From an uncultured Gammaproteobacteria bacterium (GTDB lineage: Bacteria > Pseudomonadota > Gammaproteobacteria > UBA4575), in assembly GCA_951812785.1 (NCBI GenBank), contig OX638335.1:709501-773500 (forward strand): 64,000 bases of DNA, in the 5' to 3' direction. Positions 47,458-52,525 of this stretch are shown here, in pieces (position 1 is the first letter of the stretch; the number at the start of each line of letters is the position of its first letter). Made by a program: the position numbers and the translations under genes. The notes beneath the pieces were generated by a model. The model saw nothing but the letters and a program-made list of their open reading frames with translations. It made no database searches and had not been told where the DNA came from.

Positions 47458-47653
47458 TTGGCATTAGAATCATATTCGTGCCCATATGTAGCTTTTCCAA
47501 ATCTATTTAACCTTAATTATTTGTTTGCGGAGTGGTTCACTAAGTCACTAGGCTATTCCATAGTGTAAAGTGACGAGATAGGTAATCGTTTGAAAGACTG
47601 CGCAATTTTCAATCAAACAAGGGCGTATAGTGCACTTAGGTTGGGTAAATGAG

Positions 47654-49379
47654 ATGAAATTACGAGATATGAACTGGTCAGCATTTAGCTTAATCAGTAT
47701 GTTACTTATAGTGACTGCGTCAACATTAATTACTACAAATGCTGATGCAACGTCTCTTACTAAGCAGCGCCAGCAGTATGCGGATGCGCGCCATGCGCTA
47801 GCAACAGGTAGGCTGCAAGATTTTGAATACCTGGCAGCTCAATTAAAAGACTATGCTTTGTATCCTTACTTACAGTACGAAGAATTGCGCCGTAGAATTT
47901 CTAGTGCGCCAGAAAAAGATATTCGTGCTTTCCTAGATAACTATTCCTACTATTCCTGTCGCCAGCCGAATTAGGAAGGCCTGGTTGAGTGAGTTGATGA
48001 AGCGTGGCCAACATAGCAAGTTTGAGCAATATTATGAGGGTGGTAATAATGTTGCTCATAATTGCTTTGATCTACAGGCGCGTATGAAGGTTGGGAATGC
48101 GCCAAGGTCAATCGAAGAAATTAAAGCATTCTGGCTGGTGGGCAATTCTCAGCCTAAGCAATGCGATCCTTTATTTTCCTGGCTTGAAAAACAAGGCTAT
48201 ATGGATGATGAACTGATTTGGCAACGTATTGATCTGGCGATGGCAAAACGTGATATTAAGTTGGCGAAATACTTGGCAGGTAAGTTATCTACACAACAAG
48301 TTCACTGGTTCGCACTATTAAATAGTGTTCACCATGATCCTCAAAAGATATTAACCGATCCAGATCTGAAACAAGATCATCCGCTAGCGAGAAAAGTGAT
48401 TGCATATGGTGCCCGGCGTTGGGCGAGAAAAGATGTTTCGGCTGCAACAAATGCATGGCAGCAGGTGACTAGTAAATATCAATTTACTGATGAGCAGCGA
48501 ATTCAAACGCAAGCAGATATAGCCTTAACTGCCTCGCTACGACATCATTTTTTAGCAGCAGAGCTGATGAATCAGCTGCCTGCTGACATTGAAAATGTAG
48601 AAGTACAGCAATGGCGTGCACGGGCAGCGATGCGCACCAATGATTGGCCAGCAGTGTTGCGTAGCATTGTGCTAATGGATGTGGACTCTAAACAAGCATT
48701 AGAATGGAAGTATTGGCGCGCACGCGCACTTGAGGAGATGGGTATCCATGCAGATGCAAAACACACCTATCAAAAAATTGCACAGGAACGAGATTATTAT
48801 GGCTTCTTGGCGGCTGATCGTGTGCAGCAACCATATGTAATGAATGATGATCCATTACAATTCACCAATTTTGAAATTGGTAGACTATTAGAGTATCCAC
48901 CGTTAATCTGTGCGCGCGAATTGCTGGAAGCAGGCCAGACATGGCATGCTCATAATGAATGGAAATATCTCACTGTAGAATTTGATAAGAAAAAACTTCA
49001 AATAGCAGCATATATTGCACATCAATGGGATTGGTATCACACCGCTATCTTTACTGTAGCAAGAGCGAAGCACCATGATGATTTGCAGTTGCGTTTCCCT
49101 CAGCCTTATGACAACATTTTTAATAAGAACGCAAAAAAATTCTCGTTAACGCCTGAGTATGTTTATGGAGTGATGCGACAAGAGAGTGCAATGAATAGTA
49201 GTGCAAAATCTCACGCGGGCGCGAGAGGGCTGATGCAGCTAATGCCGGCAACAGCTCCCTATAACGAAACACGTAAATATGTGAGACGAGTAATGGCATA
49301 TGCCACGGTGTATGAGTGGAAGATGGCGCAAAAAATTATGCGATTACAATCACGTATGCCGCCAGTTCTTGCAAAATAA
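47654..49379 (+). pseudogene. Soluble lytic murein transglycosylase (Slt70-like), frameshifted and internally deleted
   Basis: The gene begins with a signal peptide (about residues 5-35) and a superhelical U-domain (ALYPYLQYEELRRR). A frameshift falls at about 47945-47970, next to a duplicated ACTATTCCT. The next frame carries the U-domain and the catalytic Glu in VYGVMRQESAMNSSAKSHAG. After GLMQLMPATA it jumps straight to PYNETRKYVRRVMAYATVY, the extreme end of the family, so about 70-80 residues of the SLT domain are missing. The product cannot be a normal lytic transglycosylase. Confidence 0.85.
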
Positions 49380-49984: not shown

Positions 49985-50122
49985 CAACTAAAGATCCTCC
50001 TCCTGTTGATCTGAAACTCAACTGAAAAGTGAATTGATGGCACGTTGATATCAGCTAACTAGTAATAGAGTTGTCGTTAATCGTTTTGAATGTGAATCTT
50101 GGAGATCAGTTGCGTATCTCTT

Positions 50123-50141
50123 AATGTTATAGTATAACATT
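50123..50141. promoter_or_regulatory. Zur box (zinc-uptake repressor operator)
   Basis: AATGTTATAGTATAACATT is a perfect 19-bp palindrome with a central G. It matches the gammaproteobacterial Zur operator pattern (ATGTTATA-N-TATAACAT) and lies 28 bases before the small Cys/His protein and the TonB receptor. It implies induction of both when zinc is scarce. Confidence 0.85.
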
Positions 50142-50168
50142 ACACGATTGATAGTAACATACGCTTAA

Positions 50169-50444
50169 ATGAATAAATCTGCTTATCTTAATAGTACCTT
50201 AGCCACATTCTTCGCTTTGATGATGTGGTTTAGTGTGACGCACGCATATGAGCATGACAACGAGCATCATGTTTCTGAAGATTGTGAGATTTGTTTTATA
50301 CTGGTTCATTCAGCAGATGATGGTTGGGTCGATTCAAATGATCAATGCGACCCCGTTATCTATCGATACCAACTTTCCTTTAGTTGTAAAACCCTTTTTA
50401 GTTCAGCACTAACACATAATCAAGCAAGAGCTCCTCCTGTTTAA
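50169..50444 (+). CDS. Small exported Cys/His-rich protein, Zur-controlled
   Basis: The 91-residue product has a signal peptide or anchor (about residues 8-27) followed by a metal-binding-like segment with AYEHDNEHHVSEDCEICFIL. The C-E-I-C pair resembles DUF2946-like proteins found beside metal receptors. The rest is polar. It lies between the Zur box and the TonB receptor gene, so a role in periplasmic zinc handling is likely, but this is inference. Confidence 0.7.
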   Translation: MNKSAYLNSTLATFFALMMWFSVTHAYEHDNEHHVSEDCEICFILVHSADDGWVDSNDQCDPVIYRYQLSFSCKTLFSSALTHNQARAPPV

Positions 50445-50518
50445 TTAATTGATCCGTAAATTAATTAATCTTAAATGGCGATACCCCGCTGGTATGCCCC
50501 TAAAATAAAGGAGTGAGT

Positions 50519-52525
50519 ATGATTAAGCGTGCTTTTGTCGTGCTGCAGTTATCTATTGTGACACCGTATGTGCAAGCAGCTGAAGAGTTACCGCCGATAG
50601 TGATTCAATCAACAGTGTTTGAGAAGCAATCTACCGATGATTTTGCACAATCTACAACGATTATTAGCGATAAAAAGTTGGAACAGAAAAAGGCAGCTAC
50701 GATAGGCGAGACTGTTAGCTCTGAGCTAGGGATTACCTCAACATACTTTGCACCTGGGGCAAGTCGTCCAATTATTCGTGGTCTGGGTAGCGATCGTGTA
50801 CGTGTGCTGGAAAATGGTGTTGATTCATTGGATGTGTCGAGTGTTAGTGAGGATCATACCGTTTCAATTGAACCCTATTTAGCGAACCAGATTGAAATAT
50901 TACGTGGTCCTGCGACACTGCGTTATGGGCCAGGTGCCGTTGGGGGTCTGGTGAATGTCATCAATAAGCGTTTACCTCAAACACTTGAGACGAATGAGCT
51001 GGAAATAGATATCCATACTGAGCATGCGACAGCATCAAATAGTAATACGGCAGCGATTGATCTGAATGGTGTGTATAAATCCTTTGCTTGGCATCTAGAT
51101 GGCTTAACTCGCAACACTAATGATTATGAGATAAATGGTTTTGCCAATGAGTCAAGTTCGAGTGATAGAGGGACTCTGAAAAATAGTGATGTAGACACTG
51201 ATAATATTGGATTGGGTGGCTCTTACATTACTGATAAAGGCATGGTTGGGTTTGCATTTAGTAAGCTGGATTCTAACTATGGTATTCCCGCGGCTGAAGA
51301 GGGAGATATTAGAATAGATTTGAAACAATATCGTTATGACAGCCAGATCGAGCTATATCAACCCGTCACAGACGTTGATTCAATTGCATTGCGTTCAAGT
51401 TTTAATAATTACCGTCATTTTGAAATTGAAGAAAGTGGAGAGGTTGCCACGACGTTTGATAATGAAGCGTTCGAAAGCCGATTAGAAATCTTAATGAGCA
51501 ATAATCAAGGCTGGAAAAATGCGTTTGGATTGCAATACAACGATAAAGAATTTTCTGCGGTAGGTGAAGAAGCATTTATTCAACCGGTTGACGAGAAAAA
51601 ATATGGTGTGTTTGCAATTAGCAATTATGAAACAGATGTATGGAATCTAGAAGTAGGTGGTCGATTCGATCGGGATGAATACAAACCTGATATAGCCAAC
51701 GATGAAGAATTTTCTGTGTTTTCATTATCCATGGGTGCTGTTCGAACTTTACCTGATGATCTAAAGCTGAGTGTTTACGCAGCTCGCTCAGAACGTGCAC
51801 CACAAGAAGTGGCTTTGTATGCAGAAGGTCCACATTTGGCGACACTCACTTTCGAAACTGGCAATGAAGATATTAAGGAGGAAACTTCCTACAGTCTAGA
51901 GCTTGGATTGGGCCAGGATAAAGAGAATTACAGTTGGCAAATTAATAGCTTTTACAACCAAATAGAGGACTTTATATATTTGGCCATGGTAGATGAAAAT
52001 AATGATGGTGTTGCCGATAGGTCGGATGAGGAGGGTGTATTTGAATTAGACGGCGAGTTGCTGACTGGGAGCTACGCCAATGAAGATGCAAAGTTTTATG
52101 GTATTGAAGCAGAAGCTACTCGACGGATGTTTGAGAGTGAAATGCTTGCTGTGAATGGGCGAGTATTTGGGGATTATGTGCGTGCTAAATTTAGAGATAG
52201 CGATATGGGTAATGTGCCCCGAATCACGCCAGCAAGATTAGGAGTGGGTTTAGATGCAGACTATGATCAATGGAGTGTGAATGTGGATTTGACGTATGTA
52301 ACAGAACAAACAAAAACAGCACAGCTTGAAACAAGTACCAATGGATTTACGATGTTAAATGCCGGCCTTGAAAAAACATTTTATATGCAGAATGCAGGTG
52401 TGAATTTATTTGTAAAAGGCAAAAATTTGTTGGATAAAGGCGCTAGGCAACATGCTTCTGTTCAGAAAGATCGTATCACCCTTCCTGGACGTTCATTTGT
52501 ATTTGGCTTGTCATTGAGCTATTAA
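50519..52525 (+). CDS. TonB-dependent receptor, ZnuD-like (probable zinc receptor)
   Basis: The ATG at 50519 is preferred because AAAGGAG lies six bases upstream. A signal peptide (about residues 1-20) is followed by a TonB box region (LPPIVIQST) and the plug with SRPIIRGLGSDRVRVLENG, SIEPYLANQIEILRGPATL and YGPGAVGGLVNVI. The barrel closes with the terminal aromatic FGLSLSY. The plug segment DHTVSIEPYLANQIEI is of ZnuD type. Together with the Zur box this makes zinc the likely substrate; it imports through the outer membrane using TonB energy. Confidence 0.9.
   Translation: MIKRAFVVLQLSIVTPYVQAAEELPPIVIQSTVFEKQSTDDFAQSTTIISDKKLEQKKAATIGETVSSELGITSTYFAPGASRPIIRGLGSDRVRVLENGVDSLDVSSVSEDHTVSIEPYLANQIEILRGPATLRYGPGAVGGLVNVINKRLPQTLETNELEIDIHTEHATASNSNTAAIDLNGVYKSFAWHLDGLTRNTNDYEINGFANESSSSDRGTLKNSDVDTDNIGLGGSYITDKGMVGFAFSKLDSNYGIPAAEEGDIRIDLKQYRYDSQIELYQPVTDVDSIALRSSFNNYRHFEIEESGEVATTFDNEAFESRLEILMSNNQGWKNAFGLQYNDKEFSAVGEEAFIQPVDEKKYGVFAISNYETDVWNLEVGGRFDRDEYKPDIANDEEFSVFSLSMGAVRTLPDDLKLSVYAARSERAPQEVALYAEGPHLATLTFETGNEDIKEETSYSLELGLGQDKENYSWQINSFYNQIEDFIYLAMVDENNDGVADRSDEEGVFELDGELLTGSYANEDAKFYGIEAEATRRMFESEMLAVNGRVFGDYVRAKFRDSDMGNVPRITPARLGVGLDADYDQWSVNVDLTYVTEQTKTAQLETSTNGFTMLNAGLEKTFYMQNAGVNLFVKGKNLLDKGARQHASVQKDRITLPGRSFVFGLSLSY

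Follow-up and report, generated by a model that had tools for sequence, protein, structure and literature searches.

A 91-codon open reading frame that lies between a Zur-type operator and the gene of a ZnuD-like TonB-dependent receptor most probably encodes a CruR-type leader peptide acting in cis, which would place a second, post-transcriptional metal switch on a Zur-controlled ZnuD operon. The locus is contained in a 64-kb window, the whole stretch of DNA analysed here, which comprises positions 709501-773500 of a 2.16-Mb single-contig genome. The earlier note on this DNA had taken the small protein for an unstudied partner of the receptor. It carries instead the motifs and the spacing of the CruR-type RAPP arrest leaders and is for that reason likelier to regulate in cis than to take part in uptake. 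That it is an arrest leader of this kind we consider very probable from its sequence; the arrest itself, the metal and the direction of the response are inferred rather than read from the letters. Leaders of this kind are already known and have been published for copper.

Operator, receptor and zinc genes

Operator, leader and receptor gene follow one another in a single direction (Table 1). The palindrome, TAATGTTATA-G-TATAACATTA, had been described in the earlier note as a perfect 19-bp Zur site and in fact extends by one more base on each side. It is the sole match in the window to the 23-bp E. coli-type Zur consensus (up to three mismatches), at least one match to which occurred in 4 of 100 shuffles, and it has the same form as the Caulobacter Zur site GATGTTATATCATAACAAT ahead of znuK (PMC4176598). 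Genome-wide its 17-bp core is matched at 13 places when up to three mismatches are allowed, once exactly and 12 times with three mismatches; this is no excess over the 18 places of a reversed-pattern control. A weak promoter recognized by eye (TTGCGT-17-TATAAC, 50110-50138) would overlap the operator; a sigma-70 scan gave no promoter at the Zur box, and by eye no Shine-Dalgarno sequence is evident before the leader. Upstream of the Zur box, a lytic-transglycosylase-like gene (47630-49379, named by eye) is apparently broken into two frames and is followed by apparent gene remnants that extend to the box.

Table 1. Features of the leader-receptor locus in window coordinates
Feature	Position	Strand	Basis or remark
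Zur-type operator, perfect palindrome	50122..50142	.	21 bp, centred on G50132
Leader ORF, 91 codons and stop, predicted CruR-like metal-sensing arrest peptide	50169..50444	+	Family HMM match
Predicted metal-sensing segment H25-AYE-H29 ... C39-E-I-C42	50241..50294	+	H25, C39 and C42 invariant in 44-row alignment
RAPP arrest motif R87-P90	50427..50438	+	One residue ahead of the stop; 44 residues past CXXC
Stall-site codons GCTCCTCCTG, pairing with the receptor Shine-Dalgarno region	50430..50439	+	Pairing prediction
Receptor-gene Shine-Dalgarno GGAG, predicted to be hidden in the absence of a ribosome stalled upstream	50510..50513	+	Pairing prediction
ZnuD-like TonB-dependent receptor, 668 aa, with stop	50519..52525	+	Profile and structure-sequence matches

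The receptor matches both the plug and the barrel domain of TonB-dependent receptors, and among named receptors its best match is ZnuD (NF038289), as the earlier note had proposed. We call it ZnuD-like only, because with 413.9 bits it misses the NF038289 cut-off of 950. It is homologous to ZnuD of Neisseria meningitidis (PDB 4RDR, E 1.1e-62), whose residues D90, H100, E340 and H499 are treated as one site in the simulation section of the ZnuD paper (PMC4557270). By our reading of the alignment the buried zinc ligands H100, E340 and H499 align with H113, E302 and H439 of the window receptor, which are invariant among eight aligned receptors, and D90 is without a placed counterpart. Unlike neisserial ZnuD, the window receptor lacks a His/Asp-rich loop and stays below the NCBIfam cut-off for ZnuD; an acidic, His-containing loop insert is present in the receptors of loci L020-L022 and absent from that of the window.

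A genome without Zur would have spoken against the earlier note, which had predicted Zur-controlled zinc acquisition. Three Fur-family genes are present, one of them a Zur gene (C1:201947-202303; NF008646, E 3.8e-38, its 130.9 bits lying below the cut-off of 167) and another, at C1:7088, Irr-like. The Zur gene and the three kept zinc ligands of ZnuD support that prediction at the level of sequence. At zur of the window genome (L003) no Zur box with up to three mismatches was found, though most relatives have one. The genome yielded no match to ZnuA, an ABC-3 permease or a ZIP transporter; among the 19 genomes of the order a ZnuD-like receptor (at least 40% identity) occurs in 10 and ZnuA in 6, never both together (Fisher p 0.003, relatedness ignored). 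Outside the window a MerC-family gene follows zur (G000:C1:201535-202303). Genes of this family are present in 13 of the 19 genomes, frequently as part of the zur operon, next to ZnuD or downstream of a Zur-type box of their own, and MerC may be a candidate inner-membrane zinc importer in the window genome.

The leader and its family

The reading frame (50169-50441 without its stop codon) encodes, as the earlier note had described, a 91-residue Cys/His protein with a His-rich segment (H25, H29, H33 and H34) and the motif C39-E-I-C42; a hydrophobic N-terminal stretch is apparent by eye. The protein has no Pfam or NCBIfam match, PF11162 included, and is therefore named CruR-like here and kept out of that family; a DUF2946 search of its own genome returned only a stop-ridden chance match. 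The zinc chaperone treated in PMC10563805 is a COG0523 protein and belongs to a different family.

CruR of Bordetella pertussis (Bp2923, DUF2946) heads the cruR-bfrG(crtA)-bp2921 operon. Like CruR, the window leader is the first reading frame of a (here putative) operon with a TonB-dependent receptor and combines a CXXC with a C-terminal RAPP at a spacing of 44 residues, as compared to 45 in CruR and to the rule given in the CruR paper of within one or two residues of 45 (PMC9426467). CruR has a predicted export signal, to which the N-terminal hydrophobic stretch of the window leader may be likened. In CruR the RAPP motif is needed for downstream expression and the CXXC for the copper response (PMC9426467); during arrest in vitro the third and fourth RAPP codons occupy the P and A sites (PMC12992588), and structures of RAPP arrest have been published (PMC10951233). 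The two differ in that CruR is linked to copper, a copper receptor downstream, a 162-nt gap and Rho-dependent termination, the latter being proposed to occur once the arrest is relieved (PMC9426467), whereas the window leader has a Zur-type operator, a ZnuD-like receptor, a predicted Shine-Dalgarno latch, no match to PF11162 and a gap of 74 nt, in which a terminator scan found no terminator-like site on the + strand.

When searched for by sequence only, the small protein gave no close homologue in plasmids, and in the 19 genomes of the order it matched nothing but itself; its homologues were found through gene order and motifs instead. A scan of genome contigs with the receptor alone as query likewise gave nothing, and it was the receptor alignment as query that gave the loci, 80 named ones with a ZnuD-like receptor. 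An upstream reading frame counted as a match if it had a His followed by CXXC and, close to its end, by PP or PA, any distance of 10-120 residues being allowed. Raw matches in 44 of the 80 loci were reduced by dropping the spurious L081, together with a second overlapping frame in L068, so that a CruR-like reading frame precedes the receptor in 43 loci, a lower bound because some loci (e.g. L095) have little upstream sequence. The remainder of the loci served as control and contained 31 matches, mostly unrelated frames, in 1.83 million strand-bases. The earlier note had suggested looking for the pair next to znuD-like genes of other genomes, where it does recur.

In an alignment of these 43 leaders and that of the window (44 rows), H25, C39, C42, P89 and P90 are invariant and R87 is conserved at 90% or more. 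The distance between CXXC and RxPP, which the search did not demand, is 43-46 residues in 43 of 43 leaders (mean 44.3; L071, having no RxPP, was left out). The C-terminal motif reads RAPP in 31 of 43, RGPP in 8, RDPP in 2, and HAPP and RPPP in one each. DUF2946 is matched at E up to 1 by 20 of the 44 members (best 8.2e-7), the window member not being among them. A family HMM built without the window sequence places the window leader first among the 210 reading frames of the window (E 7.9e-11), and without its two nearest relatives as well it still recovers the leader with E 8.4e-9.

In 7 of the 44 loci (window, L036, L037, L048, L049, L063 and L099) a mismatch-free Zur core is present in the 260 nt that precede the leader, about 0.01 being expected, and in L048, L049 and L063 a Zur-like gene is divergent from the leader across the Zur box. 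The other 37 leaders have no perfect core of the window type upstream and belong mostly to betaproteobacteria, whose Zur sites may differ. Among the leaders of the wider DUF2946 sample, 20 that are not linked to ZnuD have no perfect core upstream, one of them (L122) having a core with one mismatch. In the order of the window genome a Zur box (up to one mismatch) is present at six loci, and three of these (L016, L017 and L019) are without leader, from which it follows that the leader is dispensable for Zur control.

Two particular forms of the locus were also encountered. A leader that ends in HAPP rather than RAPP lies beneath a perfect Zur box (L036:5556-5864 and L018:3569-3880); because CruR function needs the Arg, this copy may be decaying or tuned. 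In a Nitrosospira group (L038-L045, L047, L051, L057 and L069) a Fur-family gene of another branch precedes the leader and the ZnuD-like gene in the same direction, and the gaps between leader and receptor are long (122-441 nt) and without Shine-Dalgarno pairing in the loci tested. These leaders are possibly under Rho-type control.

Stall-site codons and the receptor ribosome-binding site

The RAPP codons GCU CCU CCU of the window leader are predicted to pair with the Shine-Dalgarno sequence of the receptor gene (z -2.8 for the 116-nt stretch), which for this locus alone is suggestive only, as 8% of synonymous recodings reach the observed pairing. We therefore turn to the family, in which 39 of the 44 loci were tested, L040, L044, L057 and L069 being excluded because their gaps are long or their starts uncertain, and L071 because it has no RxPP; receptor starts were picked partly by their Shine-Dalgarno sequence, in the same way for data and null. 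Over the 39 loci the pairing is 0.40, as compared to 0.16 with the stall-site stretch shuffled and 0.17 with synonymous recoding. In the 30 loci with gaps of up to 102 nt (49-102 nt) it reaches 0.49 as opposed to 0.19 for synonymous recoding (Wilcoxon p 1e-6, relatedness not removed), and when loci are grouped by lineage the excess is positive in 17 of 20 groups. A set of 34 control gene pairs displays no excess (0.10 vs 0.08). Almost no pairing is seen in L073, L079, L093, L102, L110 and L112. As 14 other leaders of the DUF2946 type also show excess pairing (0.38 vs 0.21, p 0.025), the latch may be general.

Since the stall-site codons are predicted to pair with the ribosome-binding site of the receptor, a stalled ribosome would free that site. 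Under the model that we favour, Zur would be off the operator at low zinc and the leader would be translated; RAPP would then bring about an arrest in which codons three and four of the motif would occupy the P and A sites and the CXXC, some 47 residues away from the peptidyl-transferase centre, would have just cleared the exit tunnel. The stalled ribosome would cover the anti-Shine-Dalgarno codons, and the receptor would be translated. With enough zinc, Zur would sit on the operator, and on residual transcripts the His/CXXC segment of the leader would bind metal, so that the arrest would be released and the leader finished, upon which the Shine-Dalgarno sequence would be hidden again or Rho would terminate transcription as proposed for CruR. 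That the latch itself operates we hold to be an evenly balanced matter.

Individual elements of this model have precedents. CutF of Rhodobacter capsulatus (cutFOG) is likewise an exported nascent metal sensor with a Pro-rich C-terminus, and a stem-loop shields the downstream Shine-Dalgarno sequence. It differs in that it contains CXXXC, that copper strengthens rather than relieves the stall and that the downstream gene encodes a multicopper oxidase; as a nascent copper sensor that is exported and controls a shielded Shine-Dalgarno sequence, it is thus a precedent of opposite sign (PMC9973294). Some CutF-like proteins have been suggested by the same authors to bind nickel or cobalt (PMC9973294). 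ApdA, ApdP and SecM share with the window leader an arrest motif, RAPP or RAGP, close to the C-terminus, and in SecM, as in our model, stalling opens a structure ahead of the next gene. These three however monitor protein export, and the available parts of the sources describe no metal-binding motif for them.

Rival readings, the metal and what a zinc leader would mean

Could the small protein be an exported periplasmic zinc chaperone or scavenger, which passes zinc from ZnuD to an inner-membrane importer? Its N-terminal hydrophobic stretch, His-rich segment and CXXC as well as its conservation beside ZnuD would suit such a role, and as the genome is without ZnuA, another periplasmic zinc carrier would be useful. 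A free protein, however, needs neither a fixed distance of 43-46 residues to a C-terminal RxPP nor codon-level pairing with the ribosome-binding site of the next gene. Moreover, proteomes reportedly avoid RAPP strongly, whereas small leader proteins frequently have it near their ends (PMC12992588), and earlier proteomics did not detect CruR as a protein (PMC9426467). We rank this reading low and regard it as improbable. A leader that acts through Rho-dependent termination in the gap is less easily set aside: this mechanism is supported for CruR in B. pertussis (PMC9426467), the long-gap Nitrosospira loci lack the pairing, and the pairing elsewhere could be a by-product of C-rich Ala-Pro-Pro codons, RAPP codons being inherently part-complementary to GGAG, so that even recodings reach 0.19 as compared to the 0.10 observed in control pairs. 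But the real codons pair above synonymous ones in 17 of the 20 lineage groups, and in 30 of the 39 tested loci the gap measures 49-102 nt and falls short of the 162 nt found in CruR. Hence we consider Rho-dependent termination with incidental pairing possible, though rather unlikely.

As to the metal, the published relatives sense copper, and we nonetheless lean towards zinc for the window leader. If the leader sensed copper or another metal, copper would repress a zinc receptor, for instance limiting mismetallation. The relatives that have been studied respond to copper (PMC9426467), and the same kind of leader reading frame is found ahead of copper receptors: in a DUF2946 sample of 369 genomes of the class, 29 with a match, three receptors that were examined behind leaders match TonB-copper (L115, L120 and L131). 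Here, however, a Zur-type operator precedes the leader, and the receptor retains ZnuD zinc ligands, and an HMM of the ZnuD-linked leaders scores the three copper-linked ones poorly (E 0.62, 1.3e-4 and 1.7e-3, respectively). The His residues speak less clearly, in that H-x3-H precedes CXXC in 37 of 43 ZnuD-linked leaders but several copper-linked leaders are His-rich too. Altogether, we think it unlikely that copper or another metal than zinc is the signal, more so than that Rho explains the mechanism. The same HMM scores strongly a set of leaders ahead of an unnamed outer-membrane barrel of 411-468 aa (L123, L124, L125, L129, L135, L137, L142 and L143), which are much like the ZnuD-linked ones. 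The barrel shows no clear family among the Pfam and NCBIfam profiles scanned and no perfect Zur core upstream; it is possibly another zinc-uptake protein.

Taken with the operator and the pairing, the CruR-type leader leads us to propose, tentatively and with slightly less assurance than an even judgement would carry, that a zinc-sensing branch of RAPP arrest leaders heads ZnuD operons across beta- and gammaproteobacteria and forms, together with Zur, a two-layer lock in which the arrest codons are the anti-Shine-Dalgarno sequence. One short stretch would therefore encode both a ribosome brake and the RNA latch that a ribosome so held would open. No zinc-linked arrest leader was found in the open-licence papers searched: as far as their available parts go, the main text of the CruR paper (PMC9426467) does not mention zinc, Zur or ZnuD, a second paper (PMC12992588) neither zinc nor ZnuD, and the CutF paper (PMC9973294) no zinc. 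ZnuD leaders may, however, be included in the TonB-related class of the source tables of the RAPP survey.

Zinc uptake is usually described as being controlled by Zur alone. According to the CruR authors, no riboswitch has been described for copper or zinc (PMC9426467), so that a protein-based zinc leader would fill a gap. If our reading is true, a nascent peptide that reads zinc adds a post-transcriptional layer to the control of a receptor family important in zinc starvation, and would represent a nascent-chain sensor of zinc whose translational mechanism is unlike that proposed for CruR. In related genomes Zur boxes of the same kind occur with and without the leader, a patchy distribution that would offer a natural test of what this second layer contributes, and a testable function would be gained for a family of small proteins that would otherwise pass as hypothetical.
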